Positions 19,087 through 30,570 of a stretch of 64,000 nucleotides of DNA are shown piece after piece (within the stretch, counting starts at the first letter, position 1; each line of letters begins with the position of its first letter). The stretch spans positions 1,116,001-1,180,000 of the forward strand of contig NZ_CP059399.1 of assembly GCF_013744875.1 (NCBI RefSeq), given 5' to 3'. The DNA comes from Nocardia huaxiensis. Its GTDB lineage: Bacteria > Actinomycetota > Actinomycetes > Mycobacteriales > Mycobacteriaceae. The notes beneath the pieces are model-generated. The model searched no databases, was not told the DNA's origin, and was given only the letters and a program-made list of their open reading frames with translations. A program made the translations under genes and the position numbers.

Positions 19087-19115
19087 TGTCAGGTCGGTGT
19101 CAGGTCCATATCAGG
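19087..19115 (+). promoter_or_regulatory. Triple heptamer (SARP-type box) before the ABC exporter
   Basis: TGTCAGG at 19087 and 19098 and TATCAGG at 19109: three direct heptamers at an exact 11-bp pitch (7 bp plus 4-bp spacers). The third begins 29 nt before the ATG at 19138. SARP regulators recognise direct heptamers with this spacing near the -35 region. The same array, at the same distance from the start codon, occurs at two other promoters nearby. Confidence 0.8.
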
Positions 19116-19137
19116 CGCGGTCGCGAAAGTACTCCAC

Positions 19138-20082
19138 ATGAACAACGCGGCAATCGCAGCGACCGGGCTGCGGAAGGCATACGGGGACAAGACGATCCTC
19201 GACGGTATCGATTTGAATATCGGTGCGGGCACGATCTTTTCGCTGCTCGGGCCGAACGGGGCGGGTAAGACGACCACGGTCAACGTGCTCACCACGCTGC
19301 AGAAGGCCGACGGTGGATCGGCGCGCATCGGCGGGCACGACCTGGCGACCCAGCCCGAGAAGGTGCGCGAGATCATCGGCGTGACCGGGCAGTTCGCGGC
19401 GGTGGACGACCTGTTGACGGGTGTGGAGAACCTGCAGCTGATGGCGGACCTGCATCGCATGAAGGGCGCCGAGGGCAAGCGGGTGGTCGACAACCTGCTG
19501 GAGCGCTTCGATCTGACCGGGTCGGCGGGCAAGCTCGCCTCCACCTACTCCGGCGGCATGCGCCGGAAGCTGGACCTGGCCATGACGCTGGTGACCAAGC
19601 CGGAGATCGTCTTCCTCGACGAGCCGACCACCGGCCTGGACCCGCGCAGCCGGCGCACCATGTGGGAGATCGTCCGCGAGCTCACCGACGAGGGCGTCAC
19701 CATCTTCCTCACCACCCAGTACCTGGAGGAGGCCGATCAGCTGGCCGACCGCATCGCGGTGCTGGACCAGGGCCACATCGTCGCGGAAGGCACTGCGGCG
19801 GAACTCAAGCGACGCGTGCCCGGCAGCCACATCCGCCTGCGCTTCGGCACCGCAATGGAATTGACGGAGGCGGCGCGCATCCTGCCCGGCTCCACCCCCG
19901 ACGACGAGTCCCTGGCCCTGCGGGTGCCGGGCGACAGCGGCACGAAATCGCTTCGCGCCCTGCTGGATCGACTCGCCGCCCACTCGATCGAGGCCGAGGA
20001 CGTCTCGATCCACACCCCTGATCTCGATGACGTTTTCTTCGCCCTGACCGGGCACGCCACCACGGAGGCTGTCGCATCATGA
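19138..20082 (+). CDS. Daunorubicin-resistance-type (DrrA-like) ABC transporter ATPase
   Basis: 314 residues. Walker A GPNGAGKTTTVNVLTTL near residue 38, Q-loop GVTGQFAAVDDLLTG, signature YSGGMRRKLDLAM, Walker B VFLDEPTTGLDPRS and H-loop FLTTQYLEEAD. The C-terminal ~80-residue extension matches the DrrA group of drug and lipid exporters. Together with the following permease (ATGA overlap) it forms a complete exporter. It starts right after a SARP-type box with no clear Shine-Dalgarno, so the transcript may be leaderless. The cargo is unknown. Confidence 0.93.
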   Translation: MNNAAIAATGLRKAYGDKTILDGIDLNIGAGTIFSLLGPNGAGKTTTVNVLTTLQKADGGSARIGGHDLATQPEKVREIIGVTGQFAAVDDLLTGVENLQLMADLHRMKGAEGKRVVDNLLERFDLTGSAGKLASTYSGGMRRKLDLAMTLVTKPEIVFLDEPTTGLDPRSRRTMWEIVRELTDEGVTIFLTTQYLEEADQLADRIAVLDQGHIVAEGTAAELKRRVPGSHIRLRFGTAMELTEAARILPGSTPDDESLALRVPGDSGTKSLRALLDRLAAHSIEAEDVSIHTPDLDDVFFALTGHATTEAVAS

Positions 20083-20840
20083 CCACCATCACCGCTTCGC
20101 TGGCCGACTCCTCGACCATGCTGCGCCGCAACTTCAAGCACATCGGCCGCAGCCCGGTCACCATCTTCAACGCCGCGCTCATGCCGGTCGTCATGATGCT
20201 GATCTTCGTGTATGTCTTCGGCAGCGCGTTCAATGTCGGCGAGGACTACATCAACTACTCGACCCCCGGCATGATCCTGCTGGCCATCAGCTACGGCCTC
20301 TCCGGCACCGCGGTGTCGGTGAGCTCCGACATGGCCAAGGGCATCATCAACCGCTTCAAGGTGATGTCGGTGTCCCGCAACGCGATTCTGATCGGCCATG
20401 TCGTGGCCACCATGCTCACCAACCTGATCGCCATCACCGCCGTCATCGGCGTGGCCTTCCTGCTGGGCTTCCGCTCGCCGGCGACCCTGGCCGACTGGCT
20501 CGGCGCCATCGGCGTCATGATCGCCACCTCGTTCGCGGCCTCCTGGCTGACGGTCGCGCTCGGCATGGCCGCCAAGACCCCGGAATCCGCCGGCATGAGC
20601 GTGGTCCCGCTGATCATGCTGCCCTTTCTGAGCAGCGCCATCGTCCCCGCCGACCAGATGGGCCAGGGTGTCCGCCAGTTCGCTCAGTACCAGCCCTTCA
20701 CGCCGATCATCGAATCCCTGCGCGGCTTCCTCACCGGCCACCCGTCCGGCGGCTACACCGCCGCGGCCCTGGCCTGGTGCGCCGGCTTTGCCATCGTCGG
20801 ATTCTTCTGGAGCCGTGCGACTTTCAACAAGCGAGTGTAG
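20079..20840 (+). CDS. ABC-2 type (DrrB-like) transporter permease
   Basis: 253 residues with about six membrane segments. N-terminal SSTMLRRNFKHIGRSPVTIF, then PVVMMLIFVYVFGSAF and the ABC-2 tail with RQFAQYQPFTPIIESLRGF. It overlaps the ATPase gene by 4 nt (ATGA) and its 3' end overlaps the convergent regulator gene by 17 bp. It forms the membrane channel of the exporter. Confidence 0.93.
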   Translation: MTTITASLADSSTMLRRNFKHIGRSPVTIFNAALMPVVMMLIFVYVFGSAFNVGEDYINYSTPGMILLAISYGLSGTAVSVSSDMAKGIINRFKVMSVSRNAILIGHVVATMLTNLIAITAVIGVAFLLGFRSPATLADWLGAIGVMIATSFAASWLTVALGMAAKTPESAGMSVVPLIMLPFLSSAIVPADQMGQGVRQFAQYQPFTPIIESLRGFLTGHPSGGYTAAALAWCAGFAIVGFFWSRATFNKRV

Positions 20841-23800
20841 TAGCGACCAGTTCCTGCCAATCCGATTCCGCCCCCATCGCCTCGGTGAACCCAGTGTCAC
20901 CGAGGCGATTTCGTGCTTCCCGCTCGATGCGGGCCGCATCCGGTAGCGAACGATCCGGCAGGCCACGGATTTTCGTGCTCGCCGCGAGCAGTTGCACGGC
21001 ATGCTCGGTCTGACCGTCCCGCAGGGCCAGGTCGGCGACGCCGAGCAGAACCAGGGAGATCAGGGGGGCGTGGCCGGCCTCGGAGGCCGAACGGAAGGCC
21101 ACCGCGTGGTGGGTGCGGGCCTGGTCGAGATCCGTTGCCAGATAACCGCGCAGATTGTTGATCATCGCGCTGTTGTGCGGGTACTTCGCCTCGTCGCCCA
21201 GCATGGTGGTGGCGAGGTCGAGCCGGCGGGACGCCTCCGCGGTGTCGCCGTCCCAGCGGGCCACTTCCGCTCTGGCCGCAGCCAATTCGGCGAGCGCGCT
21301 CGGCCACGCGGCCTGATCGGCGCAGCGCTGCGCGTCGGCGAAGGCGGCGGCGCTGGCCTGCGGATCGTCCAGCAGCCAGTACAGCTGCGCCTGCCGCGAT
21401 CGCATGCGGGCCACGTCCTCCAGGGCGCGGACCTCGGTGACCGCCACCACGGCCTCGTCGAAAAGCATACAGGCGGAGGCGAATTCGCCGTGCATGGCCT
21501 GGCGATCGGCGAGTTCGGTGAGCGCGAACGACATGCCCCAGCGTTCACCGAGCGCCCGGAACTCGGCGAGCGCCGTTTCCAGATACTCGTCCGCGTCCTC
21601 GTGCTGACCGAGCAGGGTGCGCATCTTGCCCAGCTGCAAACGCGCCAGCGCCCGCACCCACGGATCATCGTCGGCGAGCAGGGATTCGAAGGCGGGCAGG
21701 TACTGATCCGGGCCGTGCAGCAGCCGCTCCAGCGCGCCTACGAAACTCAGTGCAGGGTGATGCCCCCGGCTGTCCCCGGCGAGCTGATGCGCCTTGCGGA
21801 TCCATTCCGCCAGCTGCTGTTCGTCATTGCGGCCCGCACTCAGGAAGTGCACGACCAGGCCGTACACCGTGGCCCGGGTGTGATCGTCCACCTCGCCCGT
21901 GGAATTGGCTGCCGCGGTGACGAATTCGAGGCCCTCGGCCTTGTGCCCGGCCAGCCACCAGTACCAGCCGGCGGACTCCGCGAGCCGCAGCGCTCCCGCG
22001 CCGTCACCGGCGGCGAGCGCGCCCCGCATGGCCGCGGCGATATTGTCGTGCTCGGCGCCGAGCACAGCCAGCCAGTGCAGCTGCTCGGCGCGGCGCAGTT
22101 GCGGCTCCGCGGTCGCGGCCAAGCCGGTGAAGTACGAAAGATGCGCTCGGCGTGCGGCATCCGCGTCACCGGACTCGTGCAGCCGGTCCAGGGCGTAGCG
22201 CCGGATGGTGTCGAGCATGCGATAGCGCGGGCCGTCGACCTCGGTGACGAGCAACAGCGACTTCTCGGTCAGCGCGGTCAGCAGATCGAGCACCTCCCAC
22301 TGCTCGACGCCCGCGTTCCCGGATGCCTCGGTCCCCGCCGTCCTGTCGGAGCCGTATTCCGTACTCGCGCAAACCTGTTCGGCCGCTTCGAGACTCGCGC
22401 CGCCCGCGAAGACGGCCAGCCTGCGCAGCACCGATCGTTCGGCGTCGGAGAGCAGCTCCCAGCTCCAGTCCACCACCGCGCGCAGGGTTCGATGCTGCGG
22501 GATGGCGGTGCGACTGCCACCGGTCAGCAGGCGGAAACGATCGTCGAGCCGCGTCGCGAGCTGATCGAGGGACATGGTGCGCAGGCGAGCCGCCGCCAAT
22601 TCGATGGCGAGCGGAATGCCGTCGAGCGCCCGGCACACGCGCGCCATGGTCTCGAGTGTCGCGGCATCGGCGGCGAGATCCTGACGCACGGCGCCGGCCC
22701 GATCCCGCAGCAGTTGCACGGCCGGGGAGGATTCGATCTTCGCGGGATCCGCGTCGTCGGGCGGCAGCGCCAGCGGCACCACCTGCCAGATCGCCTCGCC
22801 GGTAATGCCCAGCGGCTCCCGGCTCGTCGCCAGGATCCGCAACCCCTGGCACTCCCCGAGCACCCGATGCGCGAAGGCCGCCGCGGCCTCGATCACATGC
22901 TCGCAGTTGTCGAGCACCAGCAGCGCCTCGCGTTCGCGCAGCGCCGCGATGAGCCGGTCGATCGGATCCGCGTTCGCCCCGCCGCCCAGCAGCGCGTCAC
23001 GCAAACCGAGTGCGGCCAAAGCGGATTGCGCCACATCGCCGTTCGCGCCGAGGGCCGCCAGCTCCACCAGCCACGCCCCGTCCGGCAGATCCTCGAGCAG
23101 GGTGCGTGCGGTTTCCAGTGCGAGACGGGTCTTTCCGGAGCCGCCCGGACCGGTCAGCGTCGTGAGCCGGTGTCCCGCAAGGAGTTCACGCACCACGGCG
23201 ATATCGGGGGTCTTGCCGACGTAGCTGGTCAGTTCCGCGCGCAGGTTCGTCTTGCGGTCCTCCTCGCGCGGGCCGACCTCACCGCGCAGCAAGGCCACAT
23301 GCAGTTCGGAGAGCTCCGGGGAGGGGTCCACGCCGAGCTCGTCGGCGAGCGTCTCGCGCGTCTTCTGATAGACGGTCAAAGCGTCCGAACCCCGGCCCGC
23401 CGCGGCGAGCGCCCGCATCAAGGCGGCGGCGAGCCGCTCCCGCAGCGGATTGCGGCCCACCTCTTCGGTCAGCTCGGCGATCAGTTCCGGACCCCGGCCG
23501 AGGCGGACCTCGGCTTCGTACCGGTCCTCGAGGGCCGCCAGGTGCAGGCCCTCGAAGCGGGCGACCACGGCATCGACGGCCCCGCTCTCCCGCACGTCGA
23601 CATCTCGCATGGGCGCGCCGCGCCACAGTTCGAGCGCCTCGCGCAGCAGCGGAGCGCGCTGCACATCCGTACCGCCGCGAGCGGTTTCGAGCAGCTGCTC
23701 GAATCGCACGGCGTCGACCGCCTGCGGGTCCACGACCAGCCGGTAGCCACCCGCCTGCACATCCAGCGACCCGTCCGGCAGCGCCCGGCGCAGGCGGGAC

Positions 23801-24009
23801 ACCAACGCCTGCAAGGCATTCGCCGCGTCCGCCGGCGGCTGCTCGCCCCAAATCCAGTCGACCAGCTGTGTTTTGGGAACGGCCCGGCCGGGTTCCAGCG
23901 CGAGCGCGATCAACAGGGCTCGCAGCCGCGAACCCGATACCTCGATCAATCCGCCGTCATCCGTTCGGATCACGAGTGGTCCCAGCACGCCGATCTGCAC
24001 CCGGACCAT
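20824..24009 (-). CDS. Large SARP/AfsR-type regulator (winged helix-BTAD-NB-ARC-TPR)
   Basis: 1061 residues. An OmpR-like winged helix (about 1-95: RLRALLIALALEPGRAVPKT, ANALQALVSRLRRAL), a bacterial transcriptional activation domain (about 98-245), then an NTPase with P-loop GPGGSGKTRLALE near 285, LLVLDNCEHV and GIPLAIELAAARLRTMS, and a C-terminal helical repeat region. This is the AfsR/large-SARP architecture, usually activating pathway genes through direct heptamers. Three such heptamer arrays lie at 19087, 24089 and 26452 around this gene, so it is the obvious candidate to bind them (inference). The start ATG 24009 lies 80 bp from the middle array, which could serve both directions. Confidence 0.93.
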   Translation of the reverse strand: MVRVQIGVLGPLVIRTDDGGLIEVSGSRLRALLIALALEPGRAVPKTQLVDWIWGEQPPADAANALQALVSRLRRALPDGSLDVQAGGYRLVVDPQAVDAVRFEQLLETARGGTDVQRAPLLREALELWRGAPMRDVDVRESGAVDAVVARFEGLHLAALEDRYEAEVRLGRGPELIAELTEEVGRNPLRERLAAALMRALAAAGRGSDALTVYQKTRETLADELGVDPSPELSELHVALLRGEVGPREEDRKTNLRAELTSYVGKTPDIAVVRELLAGHRLTTLTGPGGSGKTRLALETARTLLEDLPDGAWLVELAALGANGDVAQSALAALGLRDALLGGGANADPIDRLIAALREREALLVLDNCEHVIEAAAAFAHRVLGECQGLRILATSREPLGITGEAIWQVVPLALPPDDADPAKIESSPAVQLLRDRAGAVRQDLAADAATLETMARVCRALDGIPLAIELAAARLRTMSLDQLATRLDDRFRLLTGGSRTAIPQHRTLRAVVDWSWELLSDAERSVLRRLAVFAGGASLEAAEQVCASTEYGSDRTAGTEASGNAGVEQWEVLDLLTALTEKSLLLVTEVDGPRYRMLDTIRRYALDRLHESGDADAARRAHLSYFTGLAATAEPQLRRAEQLHWLAVLGAEHDNIAAAMRGALAAGDGAGALRLAESAGWYWWLAGHKAEGLEFVTAAANSTGEVDDHTRATVYGLVVHFLSAGRNDEQQLAEWIRKAHQLAGDSRGHHPALSFVGALERLLHGPDQYLPAFESLLADDDPWVRALARLQLGKMRTLLGQHEDADEYLETALAEFRALGERWGMSFALTELADRQAMHGEFASACMLFDEAVVAVTEVRALEDVARMRSRQAQLYWLLDDPQASAAAFADAQRCADQAAWPSALAELAAARAEVARWDGDTAEASRRLDLATTMLGDEAKYPHNSAMINNLRGYLATDLDQARTHHAVAFRSASEAGHAPLISLVLLGVADLALRDGQTEHAVQLLAASTKIRGLPDRSLPDAARIEREARNRLGDTGFTEAMGAESDWQELVATTLAC

Positions 24010-24088
24010 TCTGCCGTGACCCTCTGGCAGCTCGCTGGTCGACCGTTCACAACCCCTCTGACCTGGGATAACGCCAGGCTGTCAGCCG

Positions 24089-24117
24089 TGTCAGGGCGGT
24101 GTCAGGCCCGTATCAGC
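24089..24117 (+). promoter_or_regulatory. Triple heptamer (SARP-type box) before the DUF4097-ferredoxin-P450 operon
   Basis: TGTCAGG at 24089, TGTCAGG at 24100 and TATCAGC at 24111, at 11-bp pitch; the third starts exactly 29 nt before GTG 24140. An extra TGTCAGC lies at 24080, out of phase. Shared downstream bases (GGCGACAGTAG..CTCGTG) closely match the array at 26452. Confidence 0.8.
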
Positions 24118-24139
24118 GGGTCTGGCGACAGTAGTCCTC

Positions 24140-24856
24140 GTGAACAGCACAGCGAGTGCGGCTTCCGGACCACCGCAGGCCATCCGGTTCACACGGACTC
24201 AGCCCGAGGAGCACGCCATGACCACCTTCCAGACCCCCGCCCCGATCTCCCTCACCGTGGACGTGCTCTCCGGCAATGTCACCGTCATCGCCTCCGACCG
24301 CACCGACACCGTCGTCGAGGTCCGCCCGGCCGACGCCGCCAAGAAGGCCGATGTGCGGGCCGCCGCCAACACCACGGTCGATTTCGCCGACGGCGTACTG
24401 ACCGTGCGGGCGGCCAAGGACTGGCGCACCCACACCCCGTTCGGCGGCAACCCGACCATCGAGGTCACCATCCAGGTGCCGACCGGCTCGCGACTGCAGG
24501 CCACCGCCGGGGTCGGCCGCGTGCTGAGCAGCGGCGAACTCGGCGACAGCACGGTGGAGGTCTCCGCCGGCGACGTCGTGCTGGATCGCACCCGCGGCGC
24601 GGTGACCGCCAAGGTCTCGAAGGGCGACATCCGCATCGCCGAGGCCACGCGCGGCGTACTGCGCGTCGAAACCTCCATGGGCGACCTGGAGATCGGCATC
24701 CACCCGGGCAGCACCGCACGACTGGAAACCAATGCCCAGACCGGCATCGTGCAGAACCTGACACTGCCCGCCGCATCGAACGGCGAGGACATCGTGCAGG
24801 TGTACGCACGGAACTCCTACGGCAATGTCGTCATCCGCCACGCCGACGCCGCCTGA
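24140..24856 (+). CDS. DUF4097-family beta-repeat protein
   Basis: 238 residues from GTG 24140, or 212 from ATG 24218. The body is a right-handed beta-solenoid-like DUF4097 sequence: LTVDVLSGNVTVIASDRTD, IEVTIQVPTGSRLQAT, VEVSAGDVVLDRTRGAVTAK, LRVETSMGDLEIGI. The family is of unknown function, often beside transporters or sensors. Two starts compete. GTG 24140 sits exactly where the other two box-controlled genes start (the peptides begin MNST, against MNNA and MTST), suggesting a leaderless start. ATG 24218 has a good GAGGAG 6 nt upstream. It is first in an operon with the ferredoxin (4-nt gap) and P450. Confidence 0.8.
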   Translation: MNSTASAASGPPQAIRFTRTQPEEHAMTTFQTPAPISLTVDVLSGNVTVIASDRTDTVVEVRPADAAKKADVRAAANTTVDFADGVLTVRAAKDWRTHTPFGGNPTIEVTIQVPTGSRLQATAGVGRVLSSGELGDSTVEVSAGDVVLDRTRGAVTAKVSKGDIRIAEATRGVLRVETSMGDLEIGIHPGSTARLETNAQTGIVQNLTLPAASNGEDIVQVYARNSYGNVVIRHADAA

Positions 24857-24860
24857 CGCC

Positions 24861-25058
24861 ATGGAACTCAGAGTTGATCGGGAGCGCTGCATCAGCGCCG
24901 GCATGTGCGCTCTGACCGCCCCCGACGTCTTCGATCAGGACGACGCGGACGGCCGGGTGCTGGTGCTGGACGCCACGCCCGGCCCCGGACAGCAGGCCGC
25001 CGTGCGCGAGGCCGTGCAACTGTGCCCCTCCCGCGCACTCGCCCTCGCCGCCGACTGA
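24861..25058 (+). CDS. 3Fe-4S-type ferredoxin for the adjacent P450
   Basis: 65 residues starting MELRVDRERC. Cysteines in CISAGMC and later CPSRAL give the three-cysteine pattern of actinobacterial 3Fe-4S ferredoxins, with GMCALTAPDVF typical of partners of P450s. It sits between the DUF4097 gene (4 nt) and the P450 (41 nt), so it most likely delivers electrons to that enzyme. Confidence 0.9.
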   Translation: MELRVDRERCISAGMCALTAPDVFDQDDADGRVLVLDATPGPGQQAAVREAVQLCPSRALALAAD

Positions 25059-25099
25059 CCCACCTGCGACACAACATCTTTCACGGAAGGACAGCTCCC

Positions 25100-26326
25100 A
25101 TGACCCGCACCGTACCCGTCCCCCAGGGCCTGCCCATGGACCGCGACGCCGGCCCCTTCGACCCGCCCAGCGCCATCACCCGGCTGCGCGCGGCCCACCC
25201 CGTCAGCCCGATGGTCTTCCCGGACGGGCACGAGGGCTGGCTCGTCACCGGACACGAATTCGTGCGAAAAGTCATGGTGGACACCCGATTCAGCTCCCGC
25301 CAGGATCTCGGCGTGGTGCACGTGCCCTACGAAACCCCCGGCATGCCCGTCGCCACCGAACCGTCCCCGCAGATCCCGGGCCTGTTCGTGGCCATGGACC
25401 CGCCGGACCACACCCGGCTGCGGCGAAAGCTGACCGGCGCCTTCACTGTTCGCCGCATGAAGGAGCTGCAACAGCACATCGCCGACATCACCGAACGGCA
25501 GCTGGACGCCCTGGCACAGCTGACCCCGCCGGTCGATCTGGTCAAGGAATTCGCGCTGCCGGTGCCGTCGCTGGTCATCTGCGAAATGCTGGGCGTGCCG
25601 TACGCGGACCGGGAAACCTTCCAGGTCAACTCCGCTCAGTTCCTGGTCAAGGACCAGACGCTGGAGGAGAAGATGGCCGCGTTCGGGGCCATGACCAGCT
25701 ACCTGGCCGGACTGGTCGTCGCCAAGCGCGCCGAACCCGGCGAGGACATCCTGTCCGACCTCGCCCGCGACGACGATCTCGGCATCGAGGAACTCGTCGG
25801 CATCGCCTTCCTGCTGCTGCTCGCCGGACACGAGACCACCGCGAACATGTTGGCGCTGGGCACCTTCGCGCTCCTCGAGCACCCCGACCAGCTGGCCGCG
25901 CTGCGCGAGAACCCGGAGTTGATGCCCGACGCCGTCGAGGAACTACTGCGCTACCTGTCCGTCGCCGACATCTTCTACCGGTACGCCACCGAGGACATCG
26001 AACTCGGCGGCGAGACCATCACCAAGGGGTCGACCGTCGTCCTCTCCCTGCTCGCCGCCAATCGCGATCCGGAACGCTTCGAGAACCCGGACACCCTGGA
26101 CGTCCATCGCAAGGCGCGCGGCCAGGTCGCCTTCGGTCACGGCCCACACCAGTGCCTCGGTCAGCAGCTGGCCCGCATCGAAATGCGCGCCGGATTCGCG
26201 GGGCTGCTGCGCCGGTTCCCGACCCTTCGGCTCGCCATCCCGGCGGACGAGGTGAAACTGCGCACCGACATGAATATCTACGGCGTCCATGAACTTCCGG
26301 TCACCTGGACGGAGACGCCGCGCTGA
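25100..26326 (+). CDS. Cytochrome P450
   Basis: 408 residues. I-helix AGHETTANMLALG, ExxR in the helix carrying EELLRYL, and the haem loop FGHGPHQCLGQQLAR with the thiolate Cys near 352. It has a CYP105/CYP107-like soluble bacterial length, with no membrane anchor. Start ATG 25100 has GGAAGG upstream. Co-transcription with the ferredoxin and the SARP-type box upstream suggest a regulated oxidation step in a secondary or lipid pathway; the substrate is unknown. A strong terminator follows. Confidence 0.95.
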   Translation: MTRTVPVPQGLPMDRDAGPFDPPSAITRLRAAHPVSPMVFPDGHEGWLVTGHEFVRKVMVDTRFSSRQDLGVVHVPYETPGMPVATEPSPQIPGLFVAMDPPDHTRLRRKLTGAFTVRRMKELQQHIADITERQLDALAQLTPPVDLVKEFALPVPSLVICEMLGVPYADRETFQVNSAQFLVKDQTLEEKMAAFGAMTSYLAGLVVAKRAEPGEDILSDLARDDDLGIEELVGIAFLLLLAGHETTANMLALGTFALLEHPDQLAALRENPELMPDAVEELLRYLSVADIFYRYATEDIELGGETITKGSTVVLSLLAANRDPERFENPDTLDVHRKARGQVAFGHGPHQCLGQQLARIEMRAGFAGLLRRFPTLRLAIPADEVKLRTDMNIYGVHELPVTWTETPR

Positions 26327-26348
26327 TACCCGAACCCGCGAACGCCAC

Positions 26349-26377
26349 AGGGCGGAGATCCCACGGATCTCCGCCCT
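26349..26377 (+). terminator. Intrinsic hairpin terminator after the P450 operon
   Basis: A perfect 12-bp stem (AGGGCGGAGATC with its complement) and a 5-nt loop, 23 nt past the P450 stop. The following T-run is weak, as often in high-GC actinobacteria. Confidence 0.8.
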
Positions 26378-26451
26378 CGCGGCGTTTCCGCGCGTCCGAC
26401 GACAGCTGGATTCCGGCCTTCGACCGGCGCGAACAGTGCTGTCAGTAGCGG

Positions 26452-26480
26452 TGTCAGCGCCATGACAGCCCCATGTCAGT
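26452..26480 (+). promoter_or_regulatory. Triple heptamer (SARP-type box) before the GtrA gene
   Basis: TGTCAGC at 26452, TGACAGC at 26463 and TGTCAGT at 26474, at 11-bp pitch; the third starts 29 nt before GTG 26503. A further TGTCAGT at 26440 is 12 bp upstream. The spacing is identical to the arrays at 19087 and 24089. Confidence 0.8.
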
Positions 26481-26502
26481 GCCGCTGGCGAAAGTAGTTC
26501 TC

Positions 26503-26970
26503 GTGACCAGCACCGCCATCGCCACCCAGCCGCTCATCCCCGCCGAATGGTTCGACCGCCCCGCCCGCCTCGCCGGGTTCCTGCGCGGCGACCACGCCTT
26601 CGCCCAGCTCATCCGCTTCGCCCTGGTGGGCGGTTCCAGCAATATCGCCTACGTGCTGCTGTTCACGGCCCTCACCGGTGCCGGCCCGTTGATCGCCAAT
26701 ATCGCCGGCTCCATTGTCAGCACGATCATCGCCAATGAACTGCACCGCCGCCTCACCTTCCGCGCCGCCGCCCGCGTCGGCTGGTTCAAGGCCCAGTGGG
26801 AGGGCGGCGGCCTGGCGCTGATCGGGCTGGCAATCAGCACCGCCGCCCTGGCCGCCCTCGAATCCTTCGCCCCCGGACTCGGCGAGGTCGCTCAGGCCGG
26901 TGCCGTCATGGCCCTCATGGCCGCCGTCGGTGGCGCTCGCTTCCTGGCGCTGCGCGGCTTCGTCTTCTGA
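26503..26970 (+). CDS. GtrA-family small membrane protein
   Basis: 155 residues with four hydrophobic segments: LIRFALVGGSSNIAYVLLF, LIANIAGSIVSTIIANELH, GGLALIGLAISTAALAAL and a last one ending ARFLALRGFVF. The GtrA signature (RF..VGG.., N..HR..TF) is clear. The family is thought to flip polyprenyl-linked sugars or assist cell-wall glycosylation. GTG 26503 is preferred since it is placed like the other box-controlled starts; ATG 26473 would overlap the last heptamer. Confidence 0.85.
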   Translation: MTSTAIATQPLIPAEWFDRPARLAGFLRGDHAFAQLIRFALVGGSSNIAYVLLFTALTGAGPLIANIAGSIVSTIIANELHRRLTFRAAARVGWFKAQWEGGGLALIGLAISTAALAALESFAPGLGEVAQAGAVMALMAAVGGARFLALRGFVF

Positions 26971-27744: not shown

Positions 27745-30570
27745 TCAGGGTTCGGGAGCGTCCATGGCCGCCAGGCGGTGTGCGATGCCCGCGCGGCTGG
27801 TGAGGCCGAGTTTGCGGAGGATTCGGGCGAGGTGATCTTCCACGGTGCGCGGGCTGAGGTAGAGCTGGGCGGCGATGTCCTTGTTGGTGAGGCCCTGGGC
27901 CGCCAGGTGCGCCACCTCTCGTTCCCGGGCGGTCAAAGTGGTTGCGCCGGTGACGGTTCGATGACCCGCCAGGCGGCGCTGGGCGGTGGTGGCGGTGTCG
28001 ATCAGGGTGTGTGCGCCGGCGGTGGCGAACGCCGATCGGGCGGCCGATATGTGTGCGGTCGCCGCGGTGAAATCGCCGCGCTGCCCCGCGATCCGGGCGG
28101 CCACCAGCAGGGTTCGCGCGCGGAAGACAGGCATGCCCGCCTGGGCGTAATCGTCCATCGCGGCATCAGCGGCGTGCTGTGCTCCGTCGAGATCGCCGCT
28201 TGCGCAGAGATATTCGGCGCGGGCGCGCGCGACCGCGGCGCGCTGGCCGGGGAGGCCGAGCTGTTCGGCGACGGTTGCCGCCTGTGCCAGGAGTGCGGCG
28301 GCGGGATCCAGGTCACCCCGCGCCGTCGCGGCCAGCGCGGCCATGGACAGCTCCGCGGCGCGCATCGGATGCACTCGTGGGGCGGACCCGGCAGGGGTTC
28401 CGTTCGCAGATAGCGGATTCGGTTCCGGACGCGGGGGATCGAGGCCGAGGCGGGCGGCTATCTCCAGGAGGGCGGCGTCGACCACGCCACGCCACCACCG
28501 CATGGCGGGGCGGGGCAGGGCATCGAGGGTGTGCCACCAGGCGAGCACCTCTTCGCGAGATGCCGTGTCCTCCAGGACCCGAAGCTTCGCCGCACCCGCC
28601 AGCGGAGCAACACCCGGATACCCGTACAGGCCGGCGGTTTCGGCGGCATCTTCGGCCGCCGCCAGCGCCTCCTCGTAGCGCCCCAGCTTGGCCAGCGAAT
28701 AGGCGTGCACCGCATACAGTTCCGGCAGGATAAAACTGCGTCCGCGGCTGCGCCCCACCCGGAGGGCGCGTTCGATATGGATCAGGCCGGTGCGCTGATC
28801 GTCGAGGAAATACGCCATCCAGCCCAGCGCCGCGACGGCCGGCAGGCCATCGACCAGCTGAGCATCGGTGAGCCGGGCGAATTCACGTTCTGCCACACGG
28901 TAATCCGCGGCGGCCGCCTTCAGATCCAGCCCATTGAGATGCCCCATGCTCCGCAGCGTCAGTGCGGCCGCACCGATAGCCGGATCACGGACCGCCCCCG
29001 ACTCGAACAACGAACGAATCCGCCCCGCCGCCTCGGCATCACGATTGTCCTGAAGTTCGAGCATGGCCAACTCCAGCCGAATCGGCCCGCTCGCCGTGCC
29101 ACCCAGCCGGGAGACGGCTTGTTCCAAAAGCTTCCGAGCACTGTCCACCCGACCGAGAATCCGCTCACAGCGCGCGAACCACAGCACCGCCTCGGTCCCT
29201 TCGGTATTCGCCGGTGCATCGACGAGAGGTGCTGCGGGGAGCAGTGGTTCGAGCGAATCCCGTGCTCGCTCCGCTGATCCCGACAGCAGCAGGGCCTGCC
29301 CCAACCGCAGCCGGGCTGAGAATCCGGCCGGGCCGCGGTACTGCGGCGCGGTGCGCAGGGCCGCTTCGATCCAGCGCGCGCTGACCGCTGGTGCGGTGCC
29401 GAGCGCCAGCTCCGCGGCCCGCACGAGTTCGGCGGCTGCCAGTTCGTCGCAGCCACCCAGGGCGTGTTCCAGATGACGGGCGCGCGTGAGCAGCGGTGCG
29501 TCGGCGGCCCGCAGCACCTGCGCGGCGCGTGTGTGCGCATCGGCTCGCCAGCCTTCCCCGGCGAGCCGGTAGGCGGCGGTGCGGATGAGCGGATGCCGGA
29601 AAGCCAGCGTCCCGCGCGTGACGGTGATCCACCCGCGCCGCGCCAGCTCATCAACCGCCCCGCTCAACTCCTCGCGCGTGACTTCGGCTGTGGCACAGAG
29701 CAACTCCATGTCCGAGGTCGCGCCGCAGACGGCAGCGGCCTGCGCGACCAGACGTTCCCGCTCCGGCAGCTGCGCGAGTTCGGCCCGTATGGTCCGGTCC
29801 AGTGCCGCATGACCTACCCGGTCCGGTTGCGCATGACTCTCCTGATCCGGCACGGCGTGATCCGTGCGATCCGCCGTCGCATGCTCGGCTCGACTCGCAG
29901 CCGGATCATCGGCCCGGACGACGGCGTCGAACTCCGCTGGGGTGAGGTCCGCCAGTAGTTGCAGATAGAGCGGATTCCCATGCGCCGCATCGACCAGCAC
30001 CTCCCGTCGGCCCGGGGGAATCCCGGGGAGCAGGGCGCTTGCCTCGGTGGGTGACAGCGGGGGAACGGCTATGTGCGCCACCGTCACTCCGGTCGCGCGC
30101 AGAGGGGAGCCGAGTGCGTCGGGGAACTGGCCCTCGCGATATGCCACCGCCACTCGCACCGACTCGGGCAACTGCCGCAGCAGTACTGCCAGTACCCGCA
30201 GCGATGCCGTGTCCGCCCAGTGCGCATCATCGATGATCAGGACGGTCGGTACGGCCTCTAGCCGCTGCCGCAGCCAGCGGGCCGATTCCCGGATGCCGGA
30301 GCCGGCCGAGACCGCCTCGGAGTTTTCCGCGTCGAGCCGGTCGGCAATGTCCATGAGCAGGAAGTGCGGACTGGACTGCTCGAATTCGGTGGCGGCCACC
30401 ACGACTGTGCGCAGGCCGCGAGCCTGGGCCCGGCTCGCGAATTCGCGCAGCAGCCGGGACTTTCCGATTCCAGCCGGGCCCTCCACCAGGTACACGCCCG
30501 GACCGCCGGCGGCCCGGGCCGCCGCGTCGAGGGTGGCGAGTTCGCGCCTGCGGCCGACGAACGGGTCGAT
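27745..30570 (-). CDS. Large ATP-binding LuxR-family (LAL/MalT-like) regulator; apparently no standard start codon
   Basis: About 941 residues. N-terminal DPFVGRRRELATLDAAA, P-loop VEGPAGIGKSRLL, VLIIDDAHWADTASL, a long helical-repeat middle and a C-terminal LuxR helix-turn-helix (LTAREREVAHLAAQGLTNKD, LSPRTVEDHLARIL). LAL proteins are signal- and ATP-dependent activators. The first GTG in frame (30495) would cut off the conserved FVGR lead-in, just before the P-loop. Reading further up the same frame reaches a TAG with no ATG/GTG/TTG between. A strong Shine-Dalgarno (GGAGAGGAG, complement of 30577-30585) sits 6 nt before an ATC at 30570. Either ATC is used, or the sequence differs from the true ATG by one base, or the gene is damaged. 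Confidence 0.8.
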   Translation of the reverse strand: MDPFVGRRRELATLDAAARAAGGPGVYLVEGPAGIGKSRLLREFASRAQARGLRTVVVAATEFEQSSPHFLLMDIADRLDAENSEAVSAGSGIRESARWLRQRLEAVPTVLIIDDAHWADTASLRVLAVLLRQLPESVRVAVAYREGQFPDALGSPLRATGVTVAHIAVPPLSPTEASALLPGIPPGRREVLVDAAHGNPLYLQLLADLTPAEFDAVVRADDPAASRAEHATADRTDHAVPDQESHAQPDRVGHAALDRTIRAELAQLPERERLVAQAAAVCGATSDMELLCATAEVTREELSGAVDELARRGWITVTRGTLAFRHPLIRTAAYRLAGEGWRADAHTRAAQVLRAADAPLLTRARHLEHALGGCDELAAAELVRAAELALGTAPAVSARWIEAALRTAPQYRGPAGFSARLRLGQALLLSGSAERARDSLEPLLPAAPLVDAPANTEGTEAVLWFARCERILGRVDSARKLLEQAVSRLGGTASGPIRLELAMLELQDNRDAEAAGRIRSLFESGAVRDPAIGAAALTLRSMGHLNGLDLKAAAADYRVAEREFARLTDAQLVDGLPAVAALGWMAYFLDDQRTGLIHIERALRVGRSRGRSFILPELYAVHAYSLAKLGRYEEALAAAEDAAETAGLYGYPGVAPLAGAAKLRVLEDTASREEVLAWWHTLDALPRPAMRWWRGVVDAALLEIAARLGLDPPRPEPNPLSANGTPAGSAPRVHPMRAAELSMAALAATARGDLDPAAALLAQAATVAEQLGLPGQRAAVARARAEYLCASGDLDGAQHAADAAMDDYAQAGMPVFRARTLLVAARIAGQRGDFTAATAHISAARSAFATAGAHTLIDTATTAQRRLAGHRTVTGATTLTAREREVAHLAAQGLTNKDIAAQLYLSPRTVEDHLARILRKLGLTSRAGIAHRLAAMDAPEP

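Follow-up and report, generated by a model that had tools for sequence, protein, structure and literature searches.

A large SARP-type regulator of Nocardia huaxiensis and three near-identical promoters that are probably copies of one cassette

What makes the promoters of unrelated genes identical in geometry, down to the distance of the start codon and the bases beyond it? The question is raised by a stretch of 64,000 nucleotides from Nocardia huaxiensis (contig NZ_CP059399.1, positions 1,116,001 to 1,180,000 of the forward strand; hereafter the window, in whose own numbering all coordinates are given), where triple direct heptamers stand ahead of an ATP-binding cassette (ABC) exporter, a cytochrome P450 operon and a gene for a GtrA-family protein, around the gene of a large regulator of the Streptomyces antibiotic regulatory protein (SARP) type. 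An earlier note on this DNA proposed that this one regulator controls all three units, and the sequence comparisons described here support that proposal: boxes head the target genes, and among 150 genomes of the Nocardia group the box occurs only together with the regulator. As judged from sequence, the regulator very probably activates the exporter, the P450 operon and GtrA via near-identical start sites, and the best explanation of the identical geometry is that the promoters are copies.

Three triple boxes and the regulator beside them

Exact matches to TRWCAG-N5-TRWCAG-N5-TRWCAG occur at 19087-19114, 24089-24116 and 26452-26479, all on the + strand, and a pattern scan of both strands found no further exact match in the 64,000 bases (3 in total). 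The last heptamers begin at 19109, 24111 and 26474, in each case 29 nt 5' of a start codon (ATG 19138, GTG 24140 and GTG 26503). There were 0 exact triple boxes in 100 dinucleotide shuffles of the window, and when up to 3 mismatches were allowed, 6 matches were found compared to 0.32 expected. The coordinates, 11-bp pitch and 29-nt start distance reported in the earlier note were all confirmed, and the shared downstream bases that it described take the form of a GA(A/C)AGT exactly 10 nt 3' of the last TRWCAG at all three promoters. A 44-bp matrix trained on 151 promoters from other loci, with the window excluded, scored nothing else in the window above 8 bits. The shuffles, the reversed sequence and the left-out matrix rule out a chance or artefactual origin of the boxes. 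The promoters, with two additional heptamers of irregular pitch, are as follows.

19087..19130, + strand: P1, exporter operon promoter; triplet 19087-19114 and -10-like GAAAGT 19125-19130 (exact match, 55.7 bits)
24080..24085, + strand: extra TGTCAG 5' of P2, 9 bp from the triplet, irregular pitch (from the sequence)
24089..24132, + strand: P2; triplet 24089-24116 and -10-like GACAGT 24127-24132 (exact match, 60.3 bits)
26440..26445, + strand: extra TGTCAG 5' of P3, 12 bp from the triplet, irregular pitch (from the sequence)
26452..26495, + strand: P3; triplet 26452-26479 and -10-like GAAAGT 26490-26495 (exact match, 44.0 bits)

The regulator and the putative target genes are as follows.

19138..20082, + strand: ABC exporter ATPase, DrrA type (TIGR01188 drrA, 320.6 bits, cut-off 312.45; inferred start)
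20079..20840, + strand: ABC-2 exporter membrane protein (PF01061, 78.8 bits, cut-off 26.9)
20824..24009, - strand: large SARP-type regulator, 1061 aa; OmpR-type winged helix-turn-helix (wHTH), BTAD, AAA_22 ATPase, TPR-like C-terminus
24140..24217, + strand: probable relic leader from the ABC ATPase 5' end (GTGAACAGCACAGCGAGTGCGGCTTCCGG...), now 5' of DUF4097 (24/27 bases)
24218..24856, + strand: DUF4097 (toastrack) protein, with a probable start at ATG 24218 (PF13349, 32.0 bits, cut-off 22.9, in the frame read from 24140)
24861..25058, + strand: single-cluster ferredoxin, 65 aa (PF13370, 49.1 bits, cut-off 24.5)
25100..26326, + strand: cytochrome P450, CYP105-like, 408 aa (nearest solved structure CYP105AS1, 4oqs, E 2.5e-123)
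26503..26970, + strand: GtrA-family membrane protein (PF04138, 38.7 bits, cut-off 26.1); its first nine codons, VTSTAIATQ, appear to be a shortened ABC-ATPase-derived leader

The regulator has the domain order of a SARP, with an N-terminal OmpR-type winged helix (PF00486, 35.2 bits, cut-off 26.2) followed by a BTAD that matches the full model (PF03704, 118.5 bits), and the nucleotide-binding domain of a large SARP, which matched AAA_22 (PF13401, 29.2 bits, cut-off 27) and not the Pfam model of NB-ARC, the domain that the earlier note had named. The C-terminal TPR_12 match is weak (21.1 bits, under the cut-off of 30.1). AfsR and EmbR were the only PDB chains that matched the regulator in a structure-database search; its score against the AfsR equivalog model NF053617 (169.8 bits) lies far under the cut-off of 1430, and it is not a member of that equivalog group. 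Direct heptamers at an 11-bp pitch near -35, the sites typical of SARPs, are present in the sequence ahead of its candidate targets. Pattern and matrix scans of the window revealed no autoregulatory box on the regulator's strand in its own direction.

Boxes head target genes in related loci

A single scan with the regulator returned at least 582 relatives, of which the loci of the best 80, from Nocardia, Micromonospora, Kribbella, Amycolatopsis, Streptomyces and other genera, were examined. Identity to the window's regulator reaches 75% among Nocardia loci that share its kinds of genes and 78% among Nocardia genomes. The 80 loci contain 63 exact boxes, compared to none in shuffled or reversed sequence, and all 63 lie within 450 bp 5' of a target gene (exporter ATPase 26, P450 17, ferredoxin 11, DUF4097 8, GtrA 1); the gene order differs among the loci, yet the exact boxes still head target genes. 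The heptamers are accordingly present at orthologous promoters, as the earlier note had required of its proposal. Exact boxes occur in 49 of the 80 loci, and when up to 2 mismatches were allowed, 133 boxes were found in 79 of the 80, compared to 1 in reversed sequence; of the 70 inexact boxes, 65 head a target gene, 2 head the regulator and 3 have nothing assigned to them. In 61 of 66 promoters (80 loci and window), GANNGT follows the third TRWCAG at a distance of exactly 10 nt, where chance would give 0.4% per fixed place, and 53 ABC promoters, the window's included, share the P1 layout with the start codon in place. Among 200 promoters, 46 initially lacked a gene assignment; these comprise 26 P450-first, 7 DUF4097-like, 3 GtrA-like and 2 that precede a 134-aa protein described below, with 8 of unknown kind. 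Triple boxes with another downstream layout also stand at genes for beta-lactamase-fold serine hydrolases (L084, L090/L108/L116), and the L090 box reads on both strands.

Box and regulator occur together across genomes

Scoring of the regulator at E up to 1e-200 divided the 150 Nocardia-group genomes into 125 with and 25 without it (G124, G125, G142, G143 and G149 were scored as regulator-free through their absence from the list of 125 positives). The exact box is found in 108 of the 125 regulator genomes and in 0 of the 25 regulator-free ones (Fisher p = 1.3e-17, kinship ignored), and a control pattern read backward had matches in 3 of the 150; this cross-tabulation, and that at the class level below, were made by eye. 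Among the matches listed (150 boxes from 73 of the 108 box-bearing genomes), 87 boxes are no more than 15 kb from the regulator, and the other 63, in 41 genomes, are farther away or on another contig, some of which may reflect broken contigs. The targets outside the cluster include an alpha/beta hydrolase, the unnamed 134-aa protein, extra DUF4097 and P450 genes, and GtrA. A search with 110 residues of the 134-aa protein found it in 92 of the 125 regulator genomes vs. 1 of the 25 regulator-free genomes, and its first 110 residues matched no Pfam family. This protein (MSxTITLTDQDKSTLRTAAYGAVSLMAAAGAPHKG...) often has its own box (L082, L091, L102, L111, L113, L115, L174-L203). A GtrA homologue is present in 148 of the 150 genomes, and GtrA itself is therefore not tied to the regulator; of the GtrA genes in regulator-free genomes, six were examined, and each belongs to the unboxed kind.

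Direct heptamers near -35 are general SARP sites, and a Streptomyces genome contains many SARPs, according to the available text of PMC10972967, so that the boxes could be real SARP sites whose main user is a different SARP of the same genome, such as an AfsR orthologue. We consider this improbable, given that the exact box is absent from all 25 regulator-free genomes, that 79 of the 80 loci, which were selected only for their regulator, have a box, and that the AfsR repeat as given in the same text, CGTT(T/C)ATCGNN, is unlike the box.

Several observations nevertheless weigh against control of the boxes by this regulator. Exact boxes are missing from 17 of the 125 regulator genomes; of the 80 loci, 30 possess only inexact boxes, and L032 lacks even those. 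The link seen across genomes consists in large part of in-cluster boxes that were lost together with the cluster. The gene of the 134-aa protein is itself missing in 24 of the 25 regulator-free genomes, and decay of the box at this target is therefore visible in one genome only (L174, with a degenerate box). The link is looser at the class level, with a box in 15 of 31 genomes with the regulator vs. 8 of 265 without it (2 of 296 genomes for the backward control); of the 8 regulator-free matches, 5 are perfect or near-perfect tandem repeats, but so are 2 of the 15 regulator-bearing ones. Finally, 19 kb of Streptomyces sp. CL7 sequence with a P450 that is 82.5% identical to that of the window contain no box.

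A similar box (TGTCAGGCATGTGTCAGACGGATGTCAG and variants) occurs in G217, G233, G270, G301, G311, G331 and G392, all of which have a 52-55%-identical paralogue of the regulator, and it is possible that this box belongs to a second regulon, of a sister subfamily.

The promoters resemble copies of the exporter promoter

The likeness of the three promoters extends 3' of the start codon, where the shared bases encode MNNAAIAAT (ABC), VNSTASAAS (24140) and VTSTAIATQ (GtrA), although the proteins are unrelated. In the ABC ATPase these first codons belong to the protein. Boxed GtrA genes of other Nocardia genomes open with long stretches of the ATPase, as in L148 (VNSTAIAASGLRKAHGNKTILDGIDLTIGAGPYPMLRTEW..., compared to MNSTAIAASGLRKAYGDKTILDGIDLHIGAGT in an ABC gene). 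We counted the identities of each leader to any of 24 Nocardia ABC starts and compared them to 1575 control starts, namely mechanical open reading frames of at least 200 aa with alternative starts, from which 26 ABC reading frames and the known cassette starts had been removed. The control maximum was 17 identities over the 27 bases after the start and 47 over 93 bases. Over 27 bases, 31 of 31 GtrA, 15 of 16 ferredoxin and 4 of 8 DUF4097 leaders exceeded all 1575 controls; the window's leaders reached 24 (DUF4097) and 19 (GtrA) identities, and four additional boxed GtrA starts reached 18, 19, 18 and 21. Over 93 bases, 22 of the 31 GtrA leaders exceeded the control maximum, with a best value of 83 (L148).

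The alternative that the bases after the start converged under selection for leaderless translation initiation, and were not copied, has in its favour that certain early codons may favour leaderless starts and that the likeness in the window's P3 is short. It is, however, very unlikely, since GtrA leaders match ABC starts in up to 83 of 93 bases where no control exceeds 47, and since the leaders have lost codon constraint (see below). For GtrA, convergence on a consensus of leaderless starts is rejected by the control comparison, whereas for the short hydrolase leaders (0 of 7 above control) it may hold.

Two results argue against copying. The window's GtrA leader does not exceed the controls over 60 or 93 bases (42 vs. 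47 at 93), as would be expected if it had lost 24 codons (108 vs. 180 bases from start to core). The cassette is also not seen in 4 of the 8 DUF4097 leaders with a start codon, in 7 of 7 hydrolase leaders and in 15 DUF4097 promoters without a start codon.

On balance we find it quite probable that the ABC promoter is a self-contained cassette of SARP box, -10 element, leaderless start and first codons that was copied repeatedly, so that the large-SARP regulon grew by promoter duplication and an in-frame N-terminal fossil was kept where the recipient gene lacked its own ribosome-binding site. P1 would represent the source type. The ABC promoter, with the start codon and up to about 32 codons, would have been duplicated 5' of GtrA in an ancestor that lies within the Nocardia group (GtrA was searched for in this group only), and similar cassettes would have been placed 5' of ferredoxin-P450 and, in the lineage of the window, DUF4097. 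Genes with their own ribosome-binding site could then have used the copy as a plain promoter, and GtrA would have been joined in frame.

Putative mobile promoters, that is, similar promoters ahead of unrelated genes, are a known concept. Unlike these, a copy of the kind proposed for the window includes the donor's start codon and codons, is linked to a single regulator and leaves behind a fossil that is translated. A full-text literature search, with most subscription papers outside its reach, found no earlier description of the regulon, in agreement with the earlier note. What is new here is the reading of the shared geometry as the outcome of copying. The probable relic nature of the start at 24140 and the occurrence of the box far from the cluster in relatives are further additions to the earlier note.

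In L023 and L129, a remnant resembling a P450 C-terminus (LRTNVLIYGV and LRTDALAYGV, respectively) lies between the copied ABC start and the ferredoxin gene. It looks like what is left of a first P450 copy, deleted as the order P450-ferredoxin became ferredoxin-P450.

A probable translated fossil in GtrA and the likely start of DUF4097

All 31 GtrA leaders are in frame and without a stop, at 15 different lengths, and as many as about 32 codons are retained in the leaders of orthologues. Sorted by codon position, the pairwise differences number 202/158/190 in 8 full-length GtrA leaders vs. 1167/958/3514 in the ABC 5' end. These sequence comparisons indicate that the GtrA leader, a fossil of the ATPase N-terminus, is translated although its codons are no longer under constraint.

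The ferredoxin and DUF4097 genes have their own starts, and the leaders ahead of them do not always keep the frame or stay free of stops; in DUF4097, one leader reaches a stop (L004) and another is out of frame (L018). Because the DUF4097 leaders of relatives are broken in this way, ATG 24218 is the likely start of the window's DUF4097 gene. This ATG is preceded by a Shine-Dalgarno-like GAGGAG, and 15 of 23 assigned DUF4097 promoters in relatives have no start codon at the place equivalent to GTG 24140. That GTG, which the earlier note took as the DUF4097 start, is thus probably a relic, and ATG 24218 is favoured in its stead.

To follow the history of the boxed GtrA genes we used a tree of 55 rows, labelled by box alone, 36 of which are boxed; the unboxed rows were chosen on purpose, from 20 stretches of second copies and regulator-free genomes, 3 of which proved to be boxed. 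Eighteen unboxed rows form a paralogous clade (support 98/99), and the 19th unboxed row (L164) lies outside it. The boxed state requires 2 changes on this tree, with 1 still possible, and boxed GtrA may have had a single origin.

A proposed mechanism by analogy with AfsR

AfsR binds two 11-bp repeats from -40 to -19 of afsS, with R92 in contact with T-38 and T88 in contact with G-36 (available text of PMC10936776). At P1-P3, numbering from the start codon places the first base of the second heptamer at -40 and that of the third at -29. If the first T of these heptamers corresponds to AfsR T-38 and T-27, transcription would start 2 nt 5' of the start codon, and the usual distance from a -10 element would place it 0-1 nt from the start codon. 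By this analogy we infer that the P1 and P3 mRNAs are leaderless, with the start codon within about 2 nt of the transcription start. In an alignment, from which the AfsR residue numbers were counted, the DNA contacts W74, P79, S91, R92 and R94 are kept in the regulator and K95 is replaced by R, whereas Q48 is replaced by R, R87 by Q and the base contact T88 by A. To judge from its sequence, the recognition helix fits AfsR-type DNA binding, with T88 to A altering a base contact within the same pose, as a different heptamer would need.

Taken together with the preceding results, these comparisons suggest that the cluster encodes its own activator, the AfsR-like protein of 1061 aa. Its SARP protomers would sit side by side on 11-bp repeats, three instead of two, with the AfsR positions corresponding to the two downstream repeats, and would keep RNA polymerase at a promoter whose -35 is weak and whose -10 reads GAnnGT. 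In this way the regulator would co-induce a DrrAB-type exporter from P1, DUF4097-ferredoxin-CYP105 from P2 and GtrA from P3. The explanation as a whole, namely an AfsR-like activator acting on three copied promoters, of which P1 and P3 give leaderless mRNAs, with the conjecture on detoxification given below, appears to us highly probable.

AfsR/afsS of Streptomyces coelicolor (8hvr, 8k60, 8jke) is the nearest parallel. As far as the available text of PMC10936776 goes, it has in common with the window the wHTH-BTAD-ATPase-TPR layout, a weak promoter, 11-bp direct repeats at about -40 and -29 and most of the compared DNA-contact residues; the window differs in having three repeats and not two, TGTCAGG and not CGTTYATCG, and a compact, cluster-centred target set. 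Triple heptamers 5' of target genes are likewise described in the available text of PMC10972967 for DnrI, ActII-ORF4, VlmI and FdmR1, so that the triplet is not new in itself. These regulators activate antibiotic clusters, and ActII-ORF4, a small SARP, lacks the ATPase and TPR parts, unlike the window's regulator.

What the regulon may be for

CYP105 enzymes are known to oxidise a wide range of foreign compounds, often in an inducible manner, and pumps of the DrrA type export drugs or lipids. Among CYP105 members, the window's P450 scored highest against CYP105AS1 (415.2 bits), with high scores for P450-SU1 and CYP105Q4 as well. The idea that CYP105AS1 is the P450 of the unit in Amycolatopsis orientalis is not supported, since the L059 P450 scored 390.7 bits against it, below the window's value. 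The placement of P450 and pump genes under a STAND-type regulator suggests ligand-induced detoxification: a ligand sensed by the ATPase/TPR part might induce oxidation (CYP105, ferredoxin) and export (DrrAB), together with envelope changes (DUF4097, GtrA).

A serious rival to this functional part, and to this part only, is a role in handling a self-made compound, where an endogenous envelope lipid or secondary metabolite would be tailored by CYP105 and exported by DrrAB, with GtrA and DUF4097 acting at the membrane. We regard this as a real though somewhat less probable possibility. Relatives of DrrAB can export lipids, the 82.5%-identical P450 of Streptomyces sp. CL7 lies among nonribosomal peptide synthetase (NRPS) and polyketide synthase (PKS) genes, and the same kinds of genes recur in the lunaemycin cluster (available text of PMC9866976). 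However, no NRPS or PKS domain was found in the 20 window proteins that were Pfam-scanned, and the stretches of the lunaemycin and CL7 plasmids that were examined have no such box.

The lunaemycin genes Lun2-Lun5 and Lun25-Lun29 are of the same kinds (DUF4097, P450, ferredoxin, GtrA, DrrAB, SARP), with the differences, in the available text of PMC9866976, that the SARP is small (285 aa) and that the P450 is 56.2% identical to the window's. A box was sought in two stretches of this cluster and rejected, with no site above 0 bits in L224 and a best of -20 bits in L226; any triple 6-mer at an 11-bp pitch occurred there 0 times (shuffled means 1.5 and 0.4). In the atratumycin cluster, Atr32 is likewise an NB-ARC SARP beside an ABC exporter (Atr29/Atr30), but it has 667 aa and a negative effect on a biosynthetic cluster, with no box described in the available text of PMC6835768.

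SARPs are familiar chiefly for activating antibiotic clusters; in the present case, a large SARP heads a conserved P450/exporter unit in several actinobacterial genera, with a box code clean enough for targets to be listed from sequence alone. The GtrA fossils appear to catch regulon growth in the act, and they offer an unusual test of leaderless initiation, with the frame kept and the constraint lost; if the cassette reading is true, the starts of both transcription and translation can be read from evolution alone. Should the ligand prove to be a drug or a foreign compound, the unit would be an actinobacterial inducible P450-plus-pump response.

Farther along the window, the matrix scan found no box at a second regulator gene (27745-30495, - strand), which adjoins the GNAT gene 3' of GtrA and encodes a 916-aa LuxR-type large ATP-binding regulator (AAA_16, GerE).

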